From a virus, in IMG/VR virus record IMGVR_UViG_3300025138_000250, positions 1-28,503 of that record: 28,503 nt of DNA. One strand, 5' to 3'. The notes beneath the pieces are model-generated. The model searched no databases. It was not told where the DNA came from and saw only the letters and a list, made by a program, of their open reading frames with translations. Positions 1 through 26,303 of the stretch are shown here, in pieces. How positions within the stretch are numbered: the stretch's first letter is position 1; each line of letters opens with the position of its first letter. The position numbers were made by a program, and so were the translations under genes.

Positions 1-102
1 ATGTACCAGCTTGAAGAAGAAAAAAAGTCGGGCCTCTTAACGCGTGAAGAATTTTGGCTTCGTGCAAAAGAAGCAATGCAAACAATAGAAGAGGACATGT
101 AA
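1..102 (+). CDS. small ORF or 3' end of an upstream gene (edge)
   Basis: A frame with an ATG at the first base encodes 33 residues and ends with TAA at 100-102. The last base of that stop is the first base of the next gene's ATG (TAATG), a typical coupled phage junction. The product is charged and helical (runs of Glu/Lys, then EEFWLRAKEAMQTIEEDM). The frame cannot be read further upstream, so this may be the C-terminus of a longer protein. In phages a CobT-like gene is often preceded by a CobS/MoxR AAA+ ATPase, but nothing here shows an AAA+ motif. Function unknown. Confidence 0.5.
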   Translation: MYQLEEEKKSGLLTREEFWLRAKEAMQTIEEDM

Positions 103-2099
103 TGTTTAGTAACGAAAACCCCTTGGCGTTAGGGGAAGAACTACGCCGCATCTGCCGCATCATGGGGCGCAAAGATATAAAAACCGTTTTCACAGGTGAC
201 GGTGCGTCAACAAATGGCAGAACAATCAAACTGCCAGCGCTACCCCTAGATGCAAAGATGACACTTGAAGAGCAGTCAGTGTATCGCGGCTACCAAATAC
301 ATGAGGTAGCCCACGTACGATACACGAACATGGACTTGTGGAACACAACCGTAGTTACCGCAGACCAACGTCTGATTGCTACGTGGAACTGCTTGGAAGA
401 TGGCTTAATAGAACGCAGAAGCGTGGAGCGTAAAGACTACAGCAGTTTCGTTCGCCACATGTCTACACTCATGGACATTGTGATCGGTCGCAACAACCAA
501 GAGATAGCGGTTTTCGGTAGGGGTCAGGAGCTTTGGCAAACAGAACTACCTTACGCAACTCTTCAAATATCACGCATGCATTACGGCAACAGGTCAGAAG
601 AGCTACGCAAGTATGTGTTCGGTCTGCCCGAAGAGTTGGGACGAACTGCTGAGAGATGGGAAAGGCGTTTGCGTAAGTGCGTCAGTACGGAAGAAACACT
701 AGAGCTTGCGAAGAAGATGGTCGAGTTCATCAACCAAGCAGAGGACGACAAGAAAACACAAGACGCGCAAGATAAAAATTCACAGGAGAGCAAAGATCAT
801 GCCGATCAAAACCAAAATAATGATGGAGGACAACCTCACAGCGGAGCAGAAGACAGAAGCTCTGGATCAGGGGAAGCAAACGCTGATGCAAGTGATGGGA
901 ACGATACTGGAAGCGATGATAGAGATGACAGAGCTAAACAGGATGAGCAAGTCGGGCAACGTGGAACATGTTCAAGCGATGGTGTCAACGATGGCGGAAA
1001 TGTTCCCGACATTCGAGCTGGAAATGATGGCGGACGTGACGAAAAAAGCGGAGACAGAAGCGGAGCTGCTGAACAAAATGATCAGGTCAGCAATCAAGGT
1101 CAAGCCCATAGTGGACGGGATGAGCCAGGCGGAAAAAGCGACGATGCATTAGGCGGTTGGCAACCCAATGTTGACGAACTACGCGATGCAGTAAATGGCA
1201 TAGCGAAGGGCAAACCAAGCGACCATCAGCTACGCACGATTGACACAGACGACAGCGCGTTTGAACTAAGCCCCTTGTATCAGTGCTTGCAGGACTTCTT
1301 GGACAAGTCGACCCATAAGCATTGGAGACAATACAAGTATAAGCCAAGGCTCGCAAAGGAAGTATCAGAAGAGCTAGCCAGAACTACTACTCTGAATGTT
1401 AAACACATATCCAAGTGTATGCGTATATCTAGGTTGCTTCTCGCAAGAGAGGACAAGCGCAAGACATCAGGTATGCTCCAAGGTCGAGTGGACAGAAGAC
1501 GCCTAGCATCTTTGATTGCTGGACGCAAAGACGTATTCAGCAAGACAACCACAATGCGTACACGAAAAACGCTTGTCAGCGTTGTGATGGATGCATCCTC
1601 TTCAATGCATTCAGCGCCCACGATGAAGCTGGGATTTGCTCTCAATGAGATCTTGTCTCGCAGTGGTATAGACTATGAGTTCAGTGCATGGAGTAGCAAC
1701 GGAAACGTGATACTCAAGCACCCCAACGAGAGGATGGGTGACGTTCGCAAGAAGATTGCACAATACGGAATATTTAGACGTGGCAACACGCCCATGTCTT
1801 CCGCGATGAACACATCAGGTCTTCGTATATCGCAGCAAAACTATGAGCGTAAGATCATGCTCTTCATCACGGACATGCAGCCTAACTCTGGACACAGGGA
1901 TCACATGCCCTTGGCTTGCAGGTCACTTGAAGCGCAAGGCGTGGAAGTGGTTGGCATCGGCATAGGTTCCAAGGCAAATCTGTCGGACGACATGTTTACC
2001 CACGTCATCGTATCGTTGGACATGAACGAAGCATGCGATGTCATCCTCGACAAGCTAGAACAGCTCCTCATGTCAAGGGAGTTTATGGATGTTGCCTAG
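102..2099 (+). CDS. CobT-like protein: HExxH metallopeptidase-like N-terminus, acidic linker, VWA domain
   Basis: 665 aa. ATG 102 is chosen because GAGG at 91-94 lies 7 nt upstream and it overlaps the previous stop; an in-frame TTG at 54 has no such support. Residues about 60-105 carry HEVAH (His67-Glu68-His71) followed by NCLEDGLIERR, where Glu99 could be a third ligand, as in zincin-like CobT relatives. Residues about 230-370 are an Asp/Gly/Ser/Gln-rich disordered linker. The C-terminal VWA domain has the MIDAS DASSS (Asp497, Ser499, Ser501), then NTPM and FITDMQP. In bacteria CobT pairs with the AAA+ ATPase CobS in cobalt chelation, and related MoxR/VWA pairs act as remodelling chaperones. 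Phage copies probably remodel or process a protein rather than make cobalamin; that is inference. No CobS partner lies inside the window. The linker holds a second reading frame (799-1152). Confidence 0.85.
   Translation: MFSNENPLALGEELRRICRIMGRKDIKTVFTGDGASTNGRTIKLPALPLDAKMTLEEQSVYRGYQIHEVAHVRYTNMDLWNTTVVTADQRLIATWNCLEDGLIERRSVERKDYSSFVRHMSTLMDIVIGRNNQEIAVFGRGQELWQTELPYATLQISRMHYGNRSEELRKYVFGLPEELGRTAERWERRLRKCVSTEETLELAKKMVEFINQAEDDKKTQDAQDKNSQESKDHADQNQNNDGGQPHSGAEDRSSGSGEANADASDGNDTGSDDRDDRAKQDEQVGQRGTCSSDGVNDGGNVPDIRAGNDGGRDEKSGDRSGAAEQNDQVSNQGQAHSGRDEPGGKSDDALGGWQPNVDELRDAVNGIAKGKPSDHQLRTIDTDDSAFELSPLYQCLQDFLDKSTHKHWRQYKYKPRLAKEVSEELARTTTLNVKHISKCMRISRLLLAREDKRKTSGMLQGRVDRRRLASLIAGRKDVFSKTTTMRTRKTLVSVVMDASSSMHSAPTMKLGFALNEILSRSGIDYEFSAWSSNGNVILKHPNERMGDVRKKIAQYGIFRRGNTPMSSAMNTSGLRISQQNYERKIMLFITDMQPNSGHRDHMPLACRSLEAQGVEVVGIGIGSKANLSDDMFTHVIVSLDMNEACDVILDKLEQLLMSREFMDVA
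799..1152 (+). CDS. putative overlapping gene nested in the VWA gene linker (+1 frame), 117 aa
   Basis: A complete second frame runs inside the CobT-like gene, one base out of register. ATG 799 is preceded by AGGAG at 784-788 with a 10-nt spacer, a good ribosome site in the middle of a coding region; the stop is TAG at 1150-1152. The predicted protein is Met-rich and looks like a folded helical protein: heptad-like stretches such as ILEAMIEMTELNRM, AMVSTMAEMFPTFELEMM and AELLNKMIRSAIKV, with balanced Lys/Glu and no low complexity. The host frame over the same bases (residues about 233-350) is by contrast a monotonous Asp/Gly/Ser/Gln linker, the pattern expected where an unconstrained linker tolerates overprinting. 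Function unknown; expression is unproven. Confidence 0.55.
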   Translation: MPIKTKIMMEDNLTAEQKTEALDQGKQTLMQVMGTILEAMIEMTELNRMSKSGNVEHVQAMVSTMAEMFPTFELEMMADVTKKAETEAELLNKMIRSAIKVKPIVDGMSQAEKATMH

Positions 2100-2511
2100 C
2101 TTTAAATACGGAGTGCAGCCAACAACGAGAAAGGAATGGTTGCCCCTGTGGGAACAGCGTTCTCTCTCGTTCTGGTGGCATGTGAGTTACGTGGTTCGTC
2201 ACAGGCATGTGCGCCACACCGATCATCAAAAAATAAAAGAGATTTGCGCGGAGATAGACGCAGCATTTCCACGCATGAAGGAGCAGAAAGATGTCATTCG
2301 TAAGCCTAAGCGCAGGTACGCCCCTAGTTTGTCTAGCCTTGAACTTGTATCACGAAGCACGTTCGGAAGGAGTGAAAGGCCAGCTCGCCGTAGCAGAAGT
2401 TACGTTAAACAGAGTGCAATCTACGAACTACCCGAACACAGTCTGCGAAGTCGTGAAACAGACGAGCAAGAACGGCTGTCAATTCAGTTGGTATTGCGAT
2501 GGCAAAAGTGA
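2089..2511 (+). CDS. hypothetical 140-aa protein, 3' half overlapping the SleB gene
   Basis: ATG 2089 overlaps the end of the VWA gene by 11 nt and has an AAGGGAG ribosome site at 2075-2081. The first 67 residues or so (2089-2290) occupy DNA that no other gene uses. They look protein-like: aromatic-rich (WLPLWEQRSLSFWWHVSYVV), then His/Arg-rich and a helix ending in CAEIDAAFPRMKE. After 2291 the frame runs out of register with the SleB-like hydrolase for 221 nt, where the product turns Arg/Ser-rich and low in hydrophobics, as if it were a passive shadow extension. I do not recognise the family. The N-terminal part is probably a real gene; the long C-terminal tail may be tolerated read-through. 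Confidence 0.5.
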   Translation: MLPSFKYGVQPTTRKEWLPLWEQRSLSFWWHVSYVVRHRHVRHTDHQKIKEICAEIDAAFPRMKEQKDVIRKPKRRYAPSLSSLELVSRSTFGRSERPARRSRSYVKQSAIYELPEHSLRSRETDEQERLSIQLVLRWQK

Positions 2512-15533: not shown

Positions 15534-15751
15534 GTGCGTACGAAACGCAAGTCGATGGAGATCACTACCGCAAGTATGTGATACAGCCGACAGAGTTTAT
15601 CATTCGTAACCAAATACCGTTTGCCGAAGCTAACGTAATTAAATACGTTGTGCGCTGGCGTGATAAAGGTGGGCTATCCGACTTGCGAAAAGCCCAACAC
15701 TATCTTGACATGCTCATAGAGCTAGAGACTAAAGATCAAGATCAAGGTTAA
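15530..15751 (+). CDS. DUF3310-family small protein, 73 aa
   Basis: Starts in an ATGA overlap with the XRE gene. The sequence matches the short phage family DUF3310: VDGDHYRKYVIQPTEFIIRN, then PFAEANVIKYVVRWRDKGGLSDLRKAQHYLDMLIELE. These proteins are common in tailed phages and are sometimes called nucleotide-kinase-like, but their biochemical role is not firmly known. The last gene of the plus-strand operon; its 3' end overlaps the convergent giant gene by 23 nt with no terminator between them. Confidence 0.88.
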   Translation: MSAYETQVDGDHYRKYVIQPTEFIIRNQIPFAEANVIKYVVRWRDKGGLSDLRKAQHYLDMLIELETKDQDQG

Positions 15752-18700
15752 GCCCAAGGCCAGAGCTACCGCCGCTTTTCCTAGAGCTTGGCCCAACGAC
15801 AGCGTTCTTTAGTGGTTCTTTTATAGATGGCATCTGACCTGCAAACGGAACCAACCCAAACGCTGCTTCAAACATATCACGCTCTTTGTAGTTTGTACTT
15901 TCTCCGTTTAATACGATGTCCGTAAATCTGTCTTGAATGCCACCTAGTACACGAACTCCTCTAAATCCTAACGATGGGGATGGCCCTGCTATCGCACTGA
16001 GTGAGCGTATTTGTCCGTAAGCTCCGTTGTCTGCGTTATGAGATATGTCAATCAAAGTCTCTCCTATAAATCCAAGACCGCCAGAAAGCATAATACCATC
16101 GTGATAAATACCAAGTAATTTATCTGCGTCCATGCCAAGACTATTGGAAAGTTTTTCCATTTGCCTTTCCATGCTTGGGTAAGAGGCTGTGAGCCTTCTA
16201 TCTCTTATCTTATGCTCGTCGTTATCTTCACCGCCGCGACCTTGCACAACATCTTTTACGGAAGCTGATCCAGCGCCGAACGCTGGCATTACCGTAGCCA
16301 TATAAACAAGAGGCTTCCAGTTACCGTCCTTGGCCTTACGGATGTTACGTCCACCAAGACGGGCCATCATCATCGGGAATGATTTAAGCTGGTAGAAAAT
16401 TGCACCGATGGGTGTCTGACCCCACAAATGAAGGTCGTTGGGGTTTGGAGTAAAGATAGCTTGGTTAGTAAACTTGATTACGGATGAAGCAACTCTGTCA
16501 TACATCTCATCAGTCTGACCAGTGCTGTTAGACTTCATTACTTTTTCAATCATTTTAGATTTAGGATCTGCAAAATCTGATAGTCCGTAGTCAGCGAGTA
16601 TTTGTTTTGCAATTCTACCCTTACGTTCCGTAGGATAATTCTGCGCTATTTTCTGCTGCGCTTTAAAGTGTTCGAAGCCCGTAGCCGCAGCCATGTCACG
16701 CATTGTATCTGTCCACGGAGTAAGCAAAGACATGTTAAAGAAACCGGAACTAAACTGAGTAGCATCAACACCGAACGCAGTTGTCATACGTTGGTGAACA
16801 ATATTCTCTACCGCAGCTCCGATACCTCGTACCATTTCTTTGTACTCGGGGGTTCCGCTAACCATACTTGCGATACCCTTCATGCTGCTTTTAAAGTCAC
16901 CGCTATTAACCAGAGGTAACACCAAATCGCCCAGAGAAGTAAGCGTTGTAAAAGACAAGAGGGTTACGCCGTTTATTGCACGGAGCCACTTCGATGTAAC
17001 TTTTCCGTCATACAACCTACCGCCACCGTTTATGGGCTGGCGTTGCATAGCATCAAATGATCCTTGCGCATGACGCAAATTGTCTACGGAAGGAAGTTCC
17101 GTAAATCCTTTTGTGTCTACGAGAGCATTGGCTATCGCATCTGCACGATAACCAAAGTTCTTTTTCATCATCTTTGCGTTCTGGCTACTGTCTTTTGTGA
17201 GATCAAGAGACTTCATAATCTCATCTCGTATCTCTTTTGCAGTAGAACCACTACGGGCCATGCCCACTAATTGCTGCGCACGTTGATCCGCAATGATCTT
17301 ACCGTCTATGCCCGTCTTTTGAATAGGAGCTTTAAAGTGATCTGATTTAAATACACCAATCAATCCATCGTCATCTAGGTCTTTGTCAGGATCAAGCTGA
17401 CCGTTGTAGAACGTCTGGTAGTTGCGCTTGAGAACTTTGTTGGAGCGCAGCAAACGGGATACCGCATCAGCCTTACCGCTAATCGCTGCAAGATAGTCGT
17501 GTTGCCCATGACCGCCTACTCCGTATTCGGAAATCATATCTAATCTATGCTCTACGTTATCAGCGTATTTAGTCATTACGATTAGAAGATCGTTCTCTAA
17601 GAACTTAGATAAGTTATGTGGGCTTTTAGGATTAACGAAATCTGTGTACTTGTCTAAACGTAGAAGGCGCTGGAAGTCAGCATTGTCCGCAGTCTTACGA
17701 GAGTAAACTTGCATAGGGTCGCCCGTAAGCACCCCGTCCTCTGCAACTAATTTAGTAAACACAGAGTTAGCTTTTGCTAGTGCTTTCTTGGGAGCTAAGG
17801 CTACGCCTTCACGATCCAAGTGTTCAGCCATAAAGTACTGAGACAAGCTACGCTTAAAGCCTTCCTCGTCTGCTTCCATCAAATCTCTTCGCCATATCTG
17901 AGGGAAGTAATTTTCTCTGATGTCACCGATTTGTACGCCAGCTTCCGTCAGACGGCTATGAGCTTGTTCGAAGTATGATTTTACATCGTTAAAAACTTCT
18001 CGTTCTTTTGGTCTTAACTTAGATACCAAGTCATTCTCACGTAACGCATCTGTTATACGTCTGTGTGAATTAGGTTGATTGATACGTGTCTGGGGCTTGA
18101 AGCCCATAGCACCACCAACAAACTTTTGGGTGGCATCCGCCATCTGCACTGGGCCTTGCTGAACATACCTTTCAATCATCGAAGCAGTTCTGCCATTTTT
18201 ATCTGGCAACCTGTGGAGCTTGCGTGTCAAGGGTACAAGAAAGCTACCCATCTTTGCGTTGACGCGCTCAAAGTGACCACCCGAACCGTCCTCTGGCTCC
18301 GCAAACTTTGCTAAGAAATTCATCCCAGCAGTTCGCATAATGCCTGAGTTTGTCCGCATTGTCATAATGTGTCCAACCTTGTTCAGCTTTACTACGTCAT
18401 CGTCCGTAATCTTCTGCCCTTTGCCCATCTTAACTATAGTGTTTAGAGCAGCACTTGGTATGCCATTATCTTCAAGGCGGCGAGCTGCGCGTAGTCTAGC
18501 TTTCCAAGCGTCTGCTCCACCATCTTTCTGCAATGCTTCTACGTATGAAACCGATGGAGCGTCCGCAGCCATAAATGACTTTGGTGAAGGTAGGTTCATG
18601 TTGTCAAACATAGGGTCGTTAATTTTCTTTACACGATCTGAGTTCAATACAATCGTGGAATTTACCCCTCTGCTGACCGCAGCCATGTATTCATCGCTGA

Positions 18701-21700
18701 TTTCGTACATAAAGCCATCACCGATCCGCGCACCCTGCATAGGCTCGTATCTTTTTCCCAAAGGATTGTTGGCTTTCTGCCACTGCTGAGTACCGTAAAG
18801 CTGAAAATCAATACCTTCTATTCTACCCTTGTCTAATTCTTTTTGCCGTATATTTTCTACGTTGCTTATTTTTCCACCACGCTTTATGGGAACAGCTATT
18901 GTAGAGAAACCACTGCCGTATTCTCTAGTCGGAGTTCCCAGAAGTTCATTAGTACCCGTAAAGAACGCCATTGTTCTGTCGTATTCTGTATTTGGTCTGC
19001 GTCCCATAGACGTACCTTCGGCGTAATAATATCTTGCTTGCCCAGAAGGATTTTTAACAGTGAACGTAGAAAACCCAGCCTGTTTTAGTTTACGGAATAA
19101 CTCTCTCTCTACGTTCTGCGCTTTGTGAGGCATAGCTTGGGCGACCATACGGTACATACCGTTTAGAATTTCAATTCCTCTTACGGAGGTAACAGCTTCG
19201 GTGTCCTGGCTTCCGTATTCGTTCCTAATCCTATTTCTAGGCAAGAAGTCTAATAGCCTTACGCTACCATCATTCTTTAGCACCGTATTAAGTCTGTCGC
19301 TTACTTCGTCTAAGAACCGTATCCCGTCACTTCCTTTCTCTATATTTACTCGGTCTGGTATAAACAAAGGGTCATCGTCGCGGATAAACACAGGCTTAAC
19401 AAAGTCTTGCTTGTTGTAACCCGTAGTCTCTCTTAGTTCTTTTTGTAGGCCGTGGATATATACGTTCATCTCACTAAGATATTCGGGAGTTGTTGTCCCA
19501 TTTTTGCGAGCCGTTTTTAGCTGTTCGTAGGCTTCACTAAGTCCAATTACGTTATGAATACTGTCTTCTAAAATATCTCCAATTTCTGAGTATTCCATAT
19601 TTGCAGCGTCATCTATTTCTATACGCTCAAGAATAGCATCCATGTTGTAACGTATGCGGCTCGGATCACCTATGGCTGTGCTGAAACCACCGTTGGTCTG
19701 CATCACGTACATAGGAGTTGGATTTTTTTGCTTAGTCCAATTACGGATGGCGCGTTTTTTGTGGTCTGCCATAGATGACATTACGTCATCCGAGTAGTCT
19801 TTTGCTAAGAAGCTGGGTACTTCGCCATCAATGTACTCCATCGCTGGGGAACCACGCATTTTCTGAGCGTACTCTGTTCCAATATCAAACTGAGATAAAG
19901 GATAGAAACGTAAGTTCGCATCGCGGCTTGTTATCATACCACTTAATACGTGGCCTAGACTTTGAATAATTTGATCGACTTGTTCCACAGCATCATTGGA
20001 TTGTTTAAGATATGCTTCTCCTGCGGTTCGTACAGCTTCCTTTCGAAGATTGGTTTCTTCCTTCCACAACGCAACCTTACCAGTTGTCAGGAAGTCTTGG
20101 TTGCTACCAAAGTCCAGTCGATCCATGACCATAGGAATTATAATTTCTTCCATCTGGTAAACGTACTCAGGAATAGAACTAATATCATCTCCGTCAAAAT
20201 CAGTTAGTTCATTATCCCTTTGTGCAGTTTCTCGACGCACATTTTTCATTGCATCGGCAAGCTCCATTTTAAATGAAGGCTGTATCTGATCCATGACGCC
20301 GAATGGATTTTCTTCAAAGCTCGGATTAGACGTAAATCTGTTTTGCCCTCTGTTCATCCGCATCATTACGGATACGAGAGTTTCTATTCCCATACGGACT
20401 TTATCGGATGCTGCATCATCGCCCTTGCTGTCGAGCATAGAAGAAACGTATCTAAGTTGCTTCCGTAAATCCTCTATGAGAACTCCGTCATCGCCTACTT
20501 CCTTGAGGCTGTTAATGTGCAAGCCCTCTTCAATAAGACGAGTTGTTATAGTTCTAAGTACGTATGTTTTACGATCTTTACGGTGGCTCATGTCCTTGAG
20601 GACTTCGGTAGTTATCATATCCAAGTCTGGGTCAATACCTAGATTTTCTTGGTTCGGTAATTTTACCGCCCTCATTTCAGACTTTGTATTTGGAAGGTCT
20701 GGTTTTACATTTGGTTTGTAGTTTACAAAACCTCTGCGTGTCGCAAGCTCGGCTAAAGCTAAGAAGTACGCTGGTTTATTGTTGTCAACCGTCAGCATCT
20801 TTGTCATCAGAGCAGCTAGATCTGCTGTCTCTACCCCTGAGTATGGGCGGTTGGACGCATCAATGGGTGGCACGAAGTTCTTGTTTGTGAAGTCAGCAAG
20901 AGCTTGCTTGGCAGCTTTAAACTTCTTTGTTCCTTTAGCGCGAGCATAGGTCTGCACCAATTCCGCACCCGTTGCCTCTGCGTGACTTAGCCCAGCATCG
21001 TTAAAGTCGAACACTCCGTTTTCGTTTACGTCTTTATCCAAGTCCGCCAATGCTCTTGTAGCTCTAGCGGCATTTTGTTTTTGTACGCTGTTTACTTTAG
21101 CTTTCGTTTTCTTGAAAGCACGCGCACGGTTGATAGTTTCCATACCGATGACTGCACGTAAACCAAGGAAGTCTGGTGTCGGCATGTACGACATCATGTC
21201 TCCGTACTCGACATCTTGGAACTGGTTATTAAGACGTTCTTTAACTTCCGTCAGAAGATCTTTTAATTCTTCTTCGTAGAATACTTTTACGTTTTCGACA
21301 GTGTTTCCACCAATTACTTGCCTTACTTCTTGACCGCCTGCCAACGCTTTCGATACGTCAGCTTTACCCATATCTTCGCGGTCTATCATAGACGATAATT
21401 TTCTAGCAGCTTGTACCATTTTACTCGGAAGTTTTTTACCAAGCACCTTGAAAGACCCAGAAGTTCTTACTGCCTCACCTTGCCTACGTGCTATTGGCTC
21501 TGCTTGCGGCTTGGTAATGCCCATAGAAAACAATACTTCTTGAAGTTCCTTAACTTCGGCGGCTACTAATTCTGGGCTACCCGTATTTATTGCATCCTTG
21601 AGGGCTAACTCATTGTTGTGAACTTGGCGGTATCTGTTTTCAATTATCCTGCCTTTTCTTGATTTTGCTTCGACTGGATTGAGGTAGTGACGGTAAACGT

Positions 21701-24700
21701 AGTCCTGCTTATCCTGCGTCAACTGGTTAAATAAACCCTCCAAGTCTTCGTCAAAAATATCTTTACCCCGTATCTTTGCGTATAGCTTTTTAATGAGGCC
21801 ATACATTTTGTCCATAAATCCTTTGTGACGTTCAAAGAACTCAGTTTCACCAACGTCTATTCCCTTGCGGTGAATTGCAAACATTGCGAATTGATTGGCC
21901 CAAAGCTCTTGTGGTGTCTGGTCTTGAAGGACGTGACCAATCAAATCACCATCGTCTTGACCGGCTCTTATCATTGGGGTCAATTCGTCTAAGGCTGTGC
22001 TGGCTCTTGCTTTTGTAGTTCCGCTATCGTTTGCATACTTCTGAGACATTATAGACCAGAACTCACGCTTCATCTCTGAGGTTGCTAGGTTGTCCCATGC
22101 CCAGTGGCCTAACTCATGCGCCAAGGATAGGTTAAAGGTTATTGTGCCTTCCCTGTCTGCTACGTGAACTTCGTTTGTTCGAGGGTCGTAGCTTCCGTAG
22201 GTTTGTTTATCTTGGTTGAACTTAAAGACTGGAGCTTTCTTGTTGGTAGATACAAGATCAAGTAGCTCGTCGGCTACGTCTTGTTCAGCCTTACTAATAT
22301 CTTTTGTAATATACCGTAGATCTTTTCTGGCTTGCTCTAATTTTACCGTTGGTTTTTCAAATCCGTTAGGAGCTAAACGGTATCTTAAAGCCTCCAAGTT
22401 AGCTAAAACCTGCAAGCGTTCTTGAATTGGGATTTGTTTACCAGTCACCTTAGATGAAAACGTAAATGGAGCGACTTCATACGTTCTCATAATTTCACTT
22501 AAAATAGGCAAAGAGTATTCTGTATTGTTTGTTTTGTTTCTGTCAAACCACTCATTATATCGTGCAGCTTGCTTTGTGTCTTTCCCCACGCCACTCGCTC
22601 CAACTTCGTCAAGAATTTTGAATAGGAAAGCAGCTTCGTTAAACTCTAGGTCATCCACCGTAAACTTAGTTGCCATTGCCTCGGACGGAGACAAAGCGAA
22701 CTTACGGGGTACGTAAGTTTCACCGTCACGGTCTACGCCCATTTCAACACGTTCGCCTAGATTATTATTTTCATCCAGTGGTCTGAATACGTCTTCAATT
22801 CTTTGCCTGTCAGACTTAAAGAAGCGAGCTTCATCTGGAAGGTATCCGATAACAAAATCTTTTATATCAGCAGTTCCACTGCCAGAAGCGCCACGCAGAA
22901 GTTCGTTTACGTTGTGGCCTTTTTCAAGCTGATTGTCCGTAAGTATTCGTGGAAGAACATTTCCAGCAGCTTCCGATGGCGTACCCAATACATTTCTAGG
23001 TATGAGAGCCAATACCATTTCTCTCGGATCGGCACTGGAATTACCACCGCTAGTCGGTGGTACGTCTGGAATGCGTGTTGGCTTTGATTTTTTCTTAGCT
23101 TTTGGTTTCGCAGTCGTGCTTTCGAGTTGATCTATAAGCGCGGCTTTTTCTTCTAGCGGTATATCCCTTCCCAAAATGTCATCAGTCATTTGGGTTAATT
23201 GGGCTGAGTTGCGCTCAATAGATTGAACGCCCTCTTTTTGTGTTGTTCTAAGTTTGTCGAGAGCTTCGTTTAAACCCTTGAGAGTACCAAAAGTGCTAAA
23301 CTTATCACCTTCATTTGTCCTAAAGATTACTAAGTAACCAGTTTCCAAACCAGCTTCTTTAAACGTAGGCTTTCCTTCTAAGTCAGGAACTCTAGCGTTT
23401 CTTGCTGGCTTGTATGTAACGAACTCATCCGTAGCAGGTCGCGCAACTTCTTTGGAAAGTCTTTCTTTAAGGTTATCAAGTCTAGCTTGACCTTCTTTCT
23501 TTAAGTTGCCGCTTTTGTTTTTAGCTTTTTGTTTCTCAAGTTTATCTATGGCTTTCTTGAGAGAGTTAATATTGGCTGCACGTTCGTTGAGTTGAAGCTC
23601 TGCAACAGCCTTGTCTTTAGAAAGAGTAGATATACGAGGCACATCGGAAGCGCTTATAAATCCTCTACCTTGATCGTCAGTGTAACCACCCTTTACGATA
23701 GCTTGGATTTTTCCGCGCCACTCCATCGCACCAGACTTACGATCTGGCTCTAATCGGTATGTGATCCCAGAATTTTTCTCCATCTTCATCGCTTCTTCGA
23801 TCTTGCCTGATGCAGAGCGAAGGTTGCGACCTTGTGTATTTGGGAGTGTTGGGTCTATTCCATCTCTTATCTTTGTGTCGATCATCTGCTTAACAATACG
23901 ACGAACATCCTGACCGTATCTTTCGTCGGTAGAGATAGCGTTTATGATACGCGCTAATTCTGCGTCTGGGTCACTGGCCCTAGATACCATTTGAACAGTT
24001 GCGTCATAAATAACGCGAGCGTTTTGTACAGCAGTTCCCCATTCGCCCTCATAATTCTCTTGAGCGACTGCGGCATCTCTAATCTTTTTACGTTCCGCAC
24101 CAGTTAATTCTGTTTCATCCTTAGCCCGAAGTGCAGCAAGCTCTTCGTCGGAATACACGGTATCTTCAAACGCTTCTTTGGCTGCATTACGAAACTTTTT
24201 CTTTGCGCCCCTACCCAAGAAACCTTCGTAGTTTACCGTCAACTCTTTGTTGTTGACCATTGTAGAAATCATAGCCTCACCCTGTTCTTGGGTAAGACCG
24301 AATTCTTTAAAAATACTTTCGTATTTCTCTTCTGTCTCGTCGTCTAAATAGTTCCAATCTATTTCTTCTTCGTTGCCATCGGCATCGCTTAGAATTTTAT
24401 TAGCTTCCGCTTTTGCTAACTCAGTTTCACGGTAGTCGTTAAATTCCTCAAGTTCTTCTGGCGTAATGTCTAGCTCACCAATACGAACAAGTAAGTCTAA
24501 GTCCTCTTTAGTTTTTGGAACCCTTAACTCCACGCCCTCTGGATTAGTTTCAGTCATTTTATCAAGACGTTTTTTGTCTGCTTTAGATAACTTCGCCTCG
24601 GCTTCTGGCTTGGCAACTGGTGTATCTTTGGAGCTAAGAGCGTCCTTCTTGGTAGCAGGCTTGAAGTCTTCTGGCTTTGCTCCTGCGGACTTTTTCATTT

Positions 24701-26303
24701 CCGTGTGTATGGCCCTGACTAAAGCCTGCGGCTTGCCAGCTAATTTTCCTGTCTCAGACAGTTTGAACTTACCTGCGTTTATAAGATCAAGAATATCTTG
24801 CTCAGTTATTACTGCGCCTTTTTCCTTGGTTCGATCCAAGACAGCTTTTTCTTGAGCGTCAGTGCTAAATATTTTTTTGTTGAGGCTATTAACCTTTCGC
24901 TTGGGCGTATCGCCTTCTGCTTCTATTGCAGCCTTTGTCTCTAAAGCAGAGGTTGGTTTCAGTGATGCTTGGGCAGAACTTTTTGCTTTAACTTTAGGCA
25001 GTTCTTTAGCGGTGGTTTTAGCTGCGCCTTCTTGAGCGTCTACCTTTGCTTTATTTTTCTTTTCAGTCGCTACCTTTTTGCGTGTCTGTCTCTTAGACAT
25101 CTGCTTTGGTGCTGGCTCTGGTGGTATATCCAAGTGACGCGCAGCTTGTAGCTCGGCAGCTAGAGCGCGGATCTCAGTTATCTCATCGTTAAGGACGTTG
25201 ATCTCAGAAGATACTTCTTGCTGCTTTGCTGTGTCTACATTGCCCTCTGCATCGTAAACGCTGTTGTAAAGTTTTTCGACTTTAGCTTGCTTTTCTACAA
25301 CTGATCTCTCAAAGCCAGTTACCTCGGCAGTCGATTGACGAATGTTAGATATTTCTTGCTCGGCTTCACGAAGAAGCTCTTTCGCAGTTTCAATATCTTC
25401 TGCTTCTGGATTTTCAATAATCTTTGCTTGCGCGTCTGCTTCTGCCTCAAGGTCTGTCAGACGTTTGCGCGTGTTAATCGCAAGCTGAGAATTACCATTT
25501 ATCCAGTCGGCATTTATCAGGGAAGAAAAATCTGCGTTTTCTGGATCGGCAACCATAGCTGCCATTGTGTTGTCAGCCGCAGCCGTATTCGCTGCCCTAC
25601 CGTAACGACCGATACCGCCGCCTATAGCGCCACCTAACGCACCACCAAGTGTTGTTCCAAGCGCACCAGCAGCAAGCACCTCACCGCCGCTTATATCGTC
25701 GCGCAGGCCCATTTCTTTCTGCACGCCTTGTTGCGCTGCGTTGAACCCAGCTTCTATTCCGCCAGAGGCAATACCTTCTGTTATCGCACCCTGCTTTGCA
25801 CCAGCCACAGTAGCCGCCTTGCGAACCTCAGAAGCAGACTTCCCAGCGCGTGACGCAAGCGTTGCTGCTTTTGCTGCTTTCGCCCCAGCACCATATCCGC
25901 CAAGAACATTAATTGGATCAAGGATAGCGGCAGCTCCGTAATCGAGCGCCTTTTCCATAAATGTTCCGCGAGAGGGAGCGTTTGTCCAGGCTCTTGCTAA
26001 TCTGGTAAGAAGTTCTTTGTCCGAACCTGCTCTGGAATACTCGTTGATATTCCCAAGCATGGAGATAGTGTTTGTATCACTCCACCGATTGTCTGAATAC
26101 CAATCGTCTAACATGTCTTCCGTCGAACCGAAGCTCTCGCCTCTGGTCGTATAGTAAGTATTTAAATCTCTAAGGAATTGACCGTTGTTTAAGAGACTGC
26201 TGCCGCTTAAACTTGAATAGTCTTCTATGTCTTGAAGTTGGTTATCATCTGCTGCTTGTAACGCGTCATACTCTGCATAAATATCAGATAAAGATCGTGC
26301 CAT
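15729..26303 (-). CDS. giant virion/ejection protein (3524 aa) with HExxH metallopeptidase domain
   Basis: A single 10.6-kb frame. ATG 26303 has GGAG 8 nt upstream. N-terminus: helical, then an Ala/Gly-rich, membrane-active-looking stretch at about 205-235 (LGTTLGGALGGAIGGGIG). Residues about 270-560 are coiled coil and Lys/Ala/Pro low complexity. A zincin centre lies at 1396-1400 (HELGH, preceded by LSLA and followed by WAWDN); Glu1466 in TPQELWANQF is the probable third ligand. Residues about 2420-2570 are a mixed alpha/beta region. The C-terminal 420 residues have hydrophobic segments (NGVTLLSFTTLTSLGDLVLPLV, VYMATVMPAFGAG). The size, layout and position next to another large helical protein suggest a polyvalent internal virion protein injected with the DNA; the protease may cut virion or host proteins. 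That role is inference. No T7/N4-type RNA polymerase motifs were found. Confidence 0.8.
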   Translation of the reverse strand: MARSLSDIYAEYDALQAADDNQLQDIEDYSSLSGSSLLNNGQFLRDLNTYYTTRGESFGSTEDMLDDWYSDNRWSDTNTISMLGNINEYSRAGSDKELLTRLARAWTNAPSRGTFMEKALDYGAAAILDPINVLGGYGAGAKAAKAATLASRAGKSASEVRKAATVAGAKQGAITEGIASGGIEAGFNAAQQGVQKEMGLRDDISGGEVLAAGALGTTLGGALGGAIGGGIGRYGRAANTAAADNTMAAMVADPENADFSSLINADWINGNSQLAINTRKRLTDLEAEADAQAKIIENPEAEDIETAKELLREAEQEISNIRQSTAEVTGFERSVVEKQAKVEKLYNSVYDAEGNVDTAKQQEVSSEINVLNDEITEIRALAAELQAARHLDIPPEPAPKQMSKRQTRKKVATEKKNKAKVDAQEGAAKTTAKELPKVKAKSSAQASLKPTSALETKAAIEAEGDTPKRKVNSLNKKIFSTDAQEKAVLDRTKEKGAVITEQDILDLINAGKFKLSETGKLAGKPQALVRAIHTEMKKSAGAKPEDFKPATKKDALSSKDTPVAKPEAEAKLSKADKKRLDKMTETNPEGVELRVPKTKEDLDLLVRIGELDITPEELEEFNDYRETELAKAEANKILSDADGNEEEIDWNYLDDETEEKYESIFKEFGLTQEQGEAMISTMVNNKELTVNYEGFLGRGAKKKFRNAAKEAFEDTVYSDEELAALRAKDETELTGAERKKIRDAAVAQENYEGEWGTAVQNARVIYDATVQMVSRASDPDAELARIINAISTDERYGQDVRRIVKQMIDTKIRDGIDPTLPNTQGRNLRSASGKIEEAMKMEKNSGITYRLEPDRKSGAMEWRGKIQAIVKGGYTDDQGRGFISASDVPRISTLSKDKAVAELQLNERAANINSLKKAIDKLEKQKAKNKSGNLKKEGQARLDNLKERLSKEVARPATDEFVTYKPARNARVPDLEGKPTFKEAGLETGYLVIFRTNEGDKFSTFGTLKGLNEALDKLRTTQKEGVQSIERNSAQLTQMTDDILGRDIPLEEKAALIDQLESTTAKPKAKKKSKPTRIPDVPPTSGGNSSADPREMVLALIPRNVLGTPSEAAGNVLPRILTDNQLEKGHNVNELLRGASGSGTADIKDFVIGYLPDEARFFKSDRQRIEDVFRPLDENNNLGERVEMGVDRDGETYVPRKFALSPSEAMATKFTVDDLEFNEAAFLFKILDEVGASGVGKDTKQAARYNEWFDRNKTNNTEYSLPILSEIMRTYEVAPFTFSSKVTGKQIPIQERLQVLANLEALRYRLAPNGFEKPTVKLEQARKDLRYITKDISKAEQDVADELLDLVSTNKKAPVFKFNQDKQTYGSYDPRTNEVHVADREGTITFNLSLAHELGHWAWDNLATSEMKREFWSIMSQKYANDSGTTKARASTALDELTPMIRAGQDDGDLIGHVLQDQTPQELWANQFAMFAIHRKGIDVGETEFFERHKGFMDKMYGLIKKLYAKIRGKDIFDEDLEGLFNQLTQDKQDYVYRHYLNPVEAKSRKGRIIENRYRQVHNNELALKDAINTGSPELVAAEVKELQEVLFSMGITKPQAEPIARRQGEAVRTSGSFKVLGKKLPSKMVQAARKLSSMIDREDMGKADVSKALAGGQEVRQVIGGNTVENVKVFYEEELKDLLTEVKERLNNQFQDVEYGDMMSYMPTPDFLGLRAVIGMETINRARAFKKTKAKVNSVQKQNAARATRALADLDKDVNENGVFDFNDAGLSHAEATGAELVQTYARAKGTKKFKAAKQALADFTNKNFVPPIDASNRPYSGVETADLAALMTKMLTVDNNKPAYFLALAELATRRGFVNYKPNVKPDLPNTKSEMRAVKLPNQENLGIDPDLDMITTEVLKDMSHRKDRKTYVLRTITTRLIEEGLHINSLKEVGDDGVLIEDLRKQLRYVSSMLDSKGDDAASDKVRMGIETLVSVMMRMNRGQNRFTSNPSFEENPFGVMDQIQPSFKMELADAMKNVRRETAQRDNELTDFDGDDISSIPEYVYQMEEIIIPMVMDRLDFGSNQDFLTTGKVALWKEETNLRKEAVRTAGEAYLKQSNDAVEQVDQIIQSLGHVLSGMITSRDANLRFYPLSQFDIGTEYAQKMRGSPAMEYIDGEVPSFLAKDYSDDVMSSMADHKKRAIRNWTKQKNPTPMYVMQTNGGFSTAIGDPSRIRYNMDAILERIEIDDAANMEYSEIGDILEDSIHNVIGLSEAYEQLKTARKNGTTTPEYLSEMNVYIHGLQKELRETTGYNKQDFVKPVFIRDDDPLFIPDRVNIEKGSDGIRFLDEVSDRLNTVLKNDGSVRLLDFLPRNRIRNEYGSQDTEAVTSVRGIEILNGMYRMVAQAMPHKAQNVERELFRKLKQAGFSTFTVKNPSGQARYYYAEGTSMGRRPNTEYDRTMAFFTGTNELLGTPTREYGSGFSTIAVPIKRGGKISNVENIRQKELDKGRIEGIDFQLYGTQQWQKANNPLGKRYEPMQGARIGDGFMYEISDEYMAAVSRGVNSTIVLNSDRVKKINDPMFDNMNLPSPKSFMAADAPSVSYVEALQKDGGADAWKARLRAARRLEDNGIPSAALNTIVKMGKGQKITDDDVVKLNKVGHIMTMRTNSGIMRTAGMNFLAKFAEPEDGSGGHFERVNAKMGSFLVPLTRKLHRLPDKNGRTASMIERYVQQGPVQMADATQKFVGGAMGFKPQTRINQPNSHRRITDALRENDLVSKLRPKEREVFNDVKSYFEQAHSRLTEAGVQIGDIRENYFPQIWRRDLMEADEEGFKRSLSQYFMAEHLDREGVALAPKKALAKANSVFTKLVAEDGVLTGDPMQVYSRKTADNADFQRLLRLDKYTDFVNPKSPHNLSKFLENDLLIVMTKYADNVEHRLDMISEYGVGGHGQHDYLAAISGKADAVSRLLRSNKVLKRNYQTFYNGQLDPDKDLDDDGLIGVFKSDHFKAPIQKTGIDGKIIADQRAQQLVGMARSGSTAKEIRDEIMKSLDLTKDSSQNAKMMKKNFGYRADAIANALVDTKGFTELPSVDNLRHAQGSFDAMQRQPINGGGRLYDGKVTSKWLRAINGVTLLSFTTLTSLGDLVLPLVNSGDFKSSMKGIASMVSGTPEYKEMVRGIGAAVENIVHQRMTTAFGVDATQFSSGFFNMSLLTPWTDTMRDMAAATGFEHFKAQQKIAQNYPTERKGRIAKQILADYGLSDFADPKSKMIEKVMKSNSTGQTDEMYDRVASSVIKFTNQAIFTPNPNDLHLWGQTPIGAIFYQLKSFPMMMARLGGRNIRKAKDGNWKPLVYMATVMPAFGAGSASVKDVVQGRGGEDNDEHKIRDRRLTASYPSMERQMEKLSNSLGMDADKLLGIYHDGIMLSGGLGFIGETLIDISHNADNGAYGQIRSLSAIAGPSPSLGFRGVRVLGGIQDRFTDIVLNGESTNYKERDMFEAAFGLVPFAGQMPSIKEPLKNAVVGPSSRKSGGSSGLGLNLDLDL

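Follow-up and report, generated by a model that had tools for sequence, protein, structure and literature searches.

A probable overprinted gene within the disordered linker of a phage CobT-like gene

The window, i.e., the whole stretch of DNA analysed here, is an entire virus record of 28.5 kb, and inside its CobT-like gene (hereafter the host gene) a second reading frame stays open for 117 codons, raising the question of whether it is a gene in its own right or a by-product of the protein sequence encoded over it. A sequence-only reading had reported an ATG at position 799, an AGGAG 10 nt upstream of it and a 117-aa frame one base out of register, and these coordinates were all right. The features referred to below are the following.

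102..2099, + strand: host gene for a phage CobT-like protein of 665 aa, with a profile match to CobT 9uka
300..314, + strand: HExxH motif (HEVAH) of the host protein, invariant in family alignments
784..788, + strand: Shine-Dalgarno-like AGGAG of the putative nested gene, 10 nt before ATG 799
799..1152, + strand: putative nested gene in the +1 frame relative to cobT; predicted product of 117 aa, 13.1 kDa, pI 5.05, helical
807..1253, + strand: disordered linker of the host protein, residues 236-384, AlphaFold pLDDT below 50
1590..1607, + strand: MIDAS motif DASSSM of the host VWA domain; D497, S499, S501 and M502 invariant in alignments

The CobT-like host gene and its linker

The host protein comprises an N-terminal helical domain with the HExxH motif, a disordered linker and a C-terminal VWA domain. 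Pfam alone yielded weak matches for it (VWA_2 and CobT, E about 0.04), and the profile built from 17 phage homologues matched the solved CobT structure 9uka with E of 8.5e-37. In the related IMG/VR contig L001 a CobS-like AAA+ gene is located directly upstream of cobT and ends 10 nt before it. By its sequence relationship, the VWA domain with MIDAS and the CobS neighbour in L001, the host gene is a member of the CobT family and belongs to the CobS/CobT pairs of phages (PMC8651126; CRP-810, PMC11288001); PMC11288001 regards the role of cobS in phages as uncertain. The window's own record, which begins just ahead of cobT, contains no visible CobS. At window positions 1-102 the end of an ORF overlaps the cobT start (TAA/ATG at 100-104); it is unlike the CobS C-terminus occupying the same place in L001 and in the second related contig, L002, so that the window's phage may lack cobS or carry it at another place. 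Besides MIDAS, the phage CobT-like proteins possess the invariant HExxH and a conserved downstream Glu (E99, E104), a metallopeptidase-like arrangement. PHROG 459 labels the CobT-like relatives as 'peptidase', and a peptidase annotation of phage CobT-like proteins is called mistaken in PMC8651126.

The disordered linker which had been claimed for the host segment was found in the AlphaFold model of the protein, where the N- and C-terminal parts are folded and residues 236-384 have pLDDT below 50. The nested ORF (ATG at 799-801, stop codon TAG at 1150-1152, +1 offset) spans host codons 233-350, almost exactly inside this stretch, being an intact ORF wholly contained within another gene, on the same strand and in a different frame.

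Composition, conservation and selection in the second frame

The openness of the +1 frame is weak evidence for a gene. Only host codons with TA or TG as their last two letters (in the main those for Leu, Ile, Val and Met) can give rise to a stop in this frame, and the linker has few of them, hence the openness is partly compositional. The whole ORF could be regarded as a by-product of a hydrophobic-poor D/G/S/N/Q linker, with few codons creating +1 stops and with Met arising where Asp or Asn codons precede G. Consistent with this, openness is common: synonymous codon shuffles of the window gene left the 799-1152 stretch stop-free in 26-28% of cases, and +1-open runs of at least 117 codons occur in 7 of the 24 host genes (some of them near-identical) outside the clade described below, where the +1 products of CobT linkers are usually low-complexity Thr/Ala/Arg/Met strings. 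The Met-richness and the open frame, given by the sequence-only reading as its reasons, are true features, but they originate partly from the linker composition and are insufficient alone.

The window and the contigs L001 and L002 form one clade with tree support of 100/100, so that the comparison includes three sequences, two of them close relatives: the CobT proteins of L001 and L002 are about 45% identical to that of the window and 79% identical to each other. Both contigs contain a homologue of the nested ORF.

L001, 4680-5015: conserved +1 ORF at the same place in cobT
L002, 4680-5024: conserved +1 ORF at the same place in cobT

Alignment of relatives had been proposed beforehand as the way to check the gene, with frequent stops in the second frame or a lost ATG/AGGAG as the outcomes speaking against it. 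All three members retain the stop-free frame, the ATG and the Shine-Dalgarno-like site (GGAG, 10 nt ahead of the ATG), and neither of the adverse outcomes was encountered within this clade. In alignments starting at the homologous ATG, identity between the nested proteins is 39, 50 and 58% in the three pairs, whereas the host frame over the same codons exhibits lower values of 35, 37 and 50%; outside the ORF the host frame reaches 51, 49 and 86% versus 28, 29 and 66% for the +1 frame. The blocks EAELLNK.I and VKP.VD are common to all three nested proteins, which also end alike, with MH followed by the stop. Further members of the clade were not found in IMG/VR, 84,980 species genomes and phage records by scans with short peptide patterns, which can miss relatives, and the +1 frames of other CobT genes (those of CRP-810, T5S1-k141_653015 and other clades) gave no significant match to the nested profile. 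The host family is widespread and the nested gene is confined to the single 100/100 clade, a restricted distribution that marks the host gene as probably the older of the two and that loss elsewhere could also produce.

Differences between host genes were counted at codon positions 1/2/3 inside and outside the ORF and compared by Fisher's test. Host position 3 corresponds to nested position 2, and host position 1 to nested position 3, therefore selection on the +1 frame predicts a flip in the pattern of variability. Between L001 and L002, 56/44/157 differences were found in 551 codons outside the ORF (157 of 257 at position 3), and 36/32/18 in 112 codons inside it (18 of 86 at position 3), i.e., host position 3 turns from the most to the least variable over the ORF (p = 7.6e-11). 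The shift was also observed for the window versus L001 (p = 3.4e-4) and L002 (p = 1.7e-5), and in these pairs the third position, clearly the most variable outside the ORF, does not exceed the second inside it. The flip was absent from eight control pairs taken from CobT genes that lack the nested gene (pooled counts of 162/155/334 inside the linker and 890/682/1603 outside). The comparison of synonymous sites in both frames, which had likewise been proposed, gave the result expected for a gene: variation at host third positions is suppressed within the ORF and in no other part of cobT. Substitutions changing the nested protein and silent in the host one were at 0.41-0.75 of the neutral expectation, and those changing the host protein and silent in the nested one at 1.26-1.46. 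When synonymous codons were shuffled with the host proteins held fixed, the observed +1 similarity corresponded to z of 8.4, 12.0 and 13.1, which reveals purifying selection on the second frame beyond the constraint imposed by the host protein. A by-product of composition would have most changes at host position 3, and the opposite is seen, only in this clade; with the +1 similarity 8-13 sd above the level imposed by the host proteins, we consider the compositional origin of the ORF highly unlikely.

With 12-15 stops in the +2 frame and two or more in every antisense frame, no second frame except +1 is open throughout, and the signal belongs to the +1 frame; an antisense gene as its source is ruled out by the same stops. 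Conservation of nucleotides at host third positions would also be expected of an RNA or DNA element (a regulatory structure, packaging or recombination site) situated in the linker. However, the pattern is three-periodic, nested third positions are free and gaps come in whole codons; moreover, no Rfam match was obtained and folding of the start region (61 nt covered) was no better than that of shuffled sequences, which makes such an element scarcely credible. Judging from these sequence comparisons, the overlapping gene is more constrained than its segment of host CobT, and this asymmetry is unusually clear. In the comparisons of the window with L001 and L002, the final third of the ORF gives a weaker position-3 signal; in L001 and L002 the suppression of third positions may already set in a little before the ATG, which leaves the exact N-terminus uncertain.

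As a separate observation, the loci L020, L022, L024 and L027 possess +1-open runs of 172-211 codons over the CobT linkers of other phages, apparently compositional; the codon-position flip was absent from pairs involving L020, L022 and L027.

Translation, properties and possible role of the product

Considering the comparative evidence, which supports the earlier proposal of an overprinted gene in the disordered linker, the 799-1152 ORF is very probably a real overprinted gene, for which we infer translation, internal initiation and de novo birth. The conserved start codon and Shine-Dalgarno site suggest internal initiation on the cobT mRNA: ribosomes would start there the synthesis of a second protein of approximately 13 kDa. 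Such a gene would have been born once, de novo, in the common ancestor of the phages represented by the window, L001 and L002, in a hydrophobic-poor linker which had presumably kept the +1 frame nearly stop-free before the gene arose. At present the nested gene is under purifying selection, and the CobT linker over it drifts, keeping mainly its disordered and hydrophilic character.

Alternatively, ribosomes translating CobT could enter the +1 frame before the linker by programmed frameshifting, giving a CobT N-domain with a helical tail and no VWA domain. In every member of the clade the +1 frame is indeed open ahead of the ATG as well, and recoding is known in chlD, the gene of the chelatase medium subunit, from which frameshifting yields two chelatase subunits (PMC9227772). 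Nevertheless, frameshifting would not need the conserved Shine-Dalgarno site and ATG, and it would require here a +1 (or -2) shift, whereas chlD shifts more often by -1 (PMC9227772). By eye, neither a shared slippery site nor an in-frame stop was noticed in the upstream stretch, and folds of the start region are unremarkable. We therefore regard frameshifting as unlikely and internal initiation as the preferred explanation.

The predicted products of the three clade members are similar in size (111-117 aa), pI (5.0-5.5) and Met content (11-17 residues), that of the window being acidic (pI 5.05) with 16 Met. None of them has a membrane-like segment (maximum 19-residue hydropathy about 1.0). Of the Met-rich helical product proposed earlier, the 16 Met residues stand, and helices are indeed predicted (three main ones), albeit in a model of low confidence (pLDDT 66.6). 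The nested product is thus probably an acidic, helical, soluble protein of about 13 kDa.

No homologues of the product were detected by profile, PDB sequence or fold-library search (the last with a model that is weak for this purpose), and no stand-alone homologues were found in IMG/VR, phage records and six phage records searched whole. Matches to Pfam, PHROG, NCBIfam and PADLOC were weak (E of 0.002-0.3) and, since they differ between the three homologues, were treated as chance. An identity as terminase small subunit, suggested by what we take to be a resemblance to T4 gp16, was rejected: no profile match was obtained, and TerL of L001 lies elsewhere, adjoined by a 112-aa ORF.

As for the function, the product of the nested gene might be a small, soluble accessory protein, made alongside CobT in the course of infection. 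Our first choice, held tentatively, is a role in the CobS/CobT AAA+/VWA complex, as its partner or regulator; the product could instead be an unrelated host-takeover or anti-defence protein. A wider proposal, which as a whole appears rather doubtful, is that the CobT linker gave birth de novo, in its +1 frame, to a new family of proteins having a new fold, which became a dedicated CobS/CobT partner or regulator, and that hydrophobic-poor disordered linkers, naturally poor in +1 stops, are more generally the cradles in which tailed phages acquire overprinted genes.

Comparison with known overlapping genes and other features of the record

Rz1, located within Rz of phage lambda, is a fully nested overprinted gene. 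Another one is E within D of phiX174 (PMC8227390). The gene in cobT is similar to both in that a second protein is encoded in another frame entirely inside the host gene, from its own internal start (here predicted). Unlike these two, which are lysis genes, it lies in a cobT linker, its predicted product is soluble and helical, and it has no detectable relatives. Outside very compact viruses, same-strand genes that are both long and fully nested, and for which purifying selection has been demonstrated, are to our knowledge rare, and gene finders discard genes of this kind.

Among viral overprints the +1 offset is the commonest for internal overlaps, phylogenetic spread is narrow, and disorder in one of the two proteins is considered to ease the twofold constraint (PMC8227390). 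The nested gene in cobT shares the +1 offset, the disordered partner and the narrow spread with the surveyed cases; however, that survey concerns mainly small eukaryotic viruses, whereas here the gene belongs to a tailed dsDNA phage and the host segment is apparently the less constrained one. As in chlD (PMC9227772), two products would come from one gene of the chelatase VWA-subunit family, but the second product of chlD shares the N-terminal part and arises by frameshifting, whereas the nested product would have its own start and no residue shared with the host protein. The sequence-only reading had considered a nested gene in phage cobT to be undescribed, and none was found described in the literature searched; for the phage CobS/CobT pairs, the consulted passages of PMC8651126 and PMC11288001 do not mention one. 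Overprinted genes as such, their +1 bias and their preference for disordered regions were already known (PMC8227390), and what is new is a well-supported case in phage cobT.

The locus appears to offer a clean before-and-after comparison: related CobT linkers are for the most part +1-open already, with a low-complexity by-product, and one clade seems to have made a conserved protein of that frame, the selective burden having moved there from the old (CobT) frame to the new (+1) one. Third-position suppression in disordered linkers of phage genes suggests itself as a simple screen.

Elsewhere in the record, a conserved small gene (window 2089-2511) shares 221 nt, read in another frame, with a cell-wall hydrolase gene (2291-2704), and the overlap is present in all three phages; the third-position pattern of the hydrolase is normal and thus gives no hint of selection on the overlapping tail. 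Positions 15729-26303 contain, with a weak spanin-like PHROG match as its only one, an ORF of 3524 aa that occupies over a third of the record.
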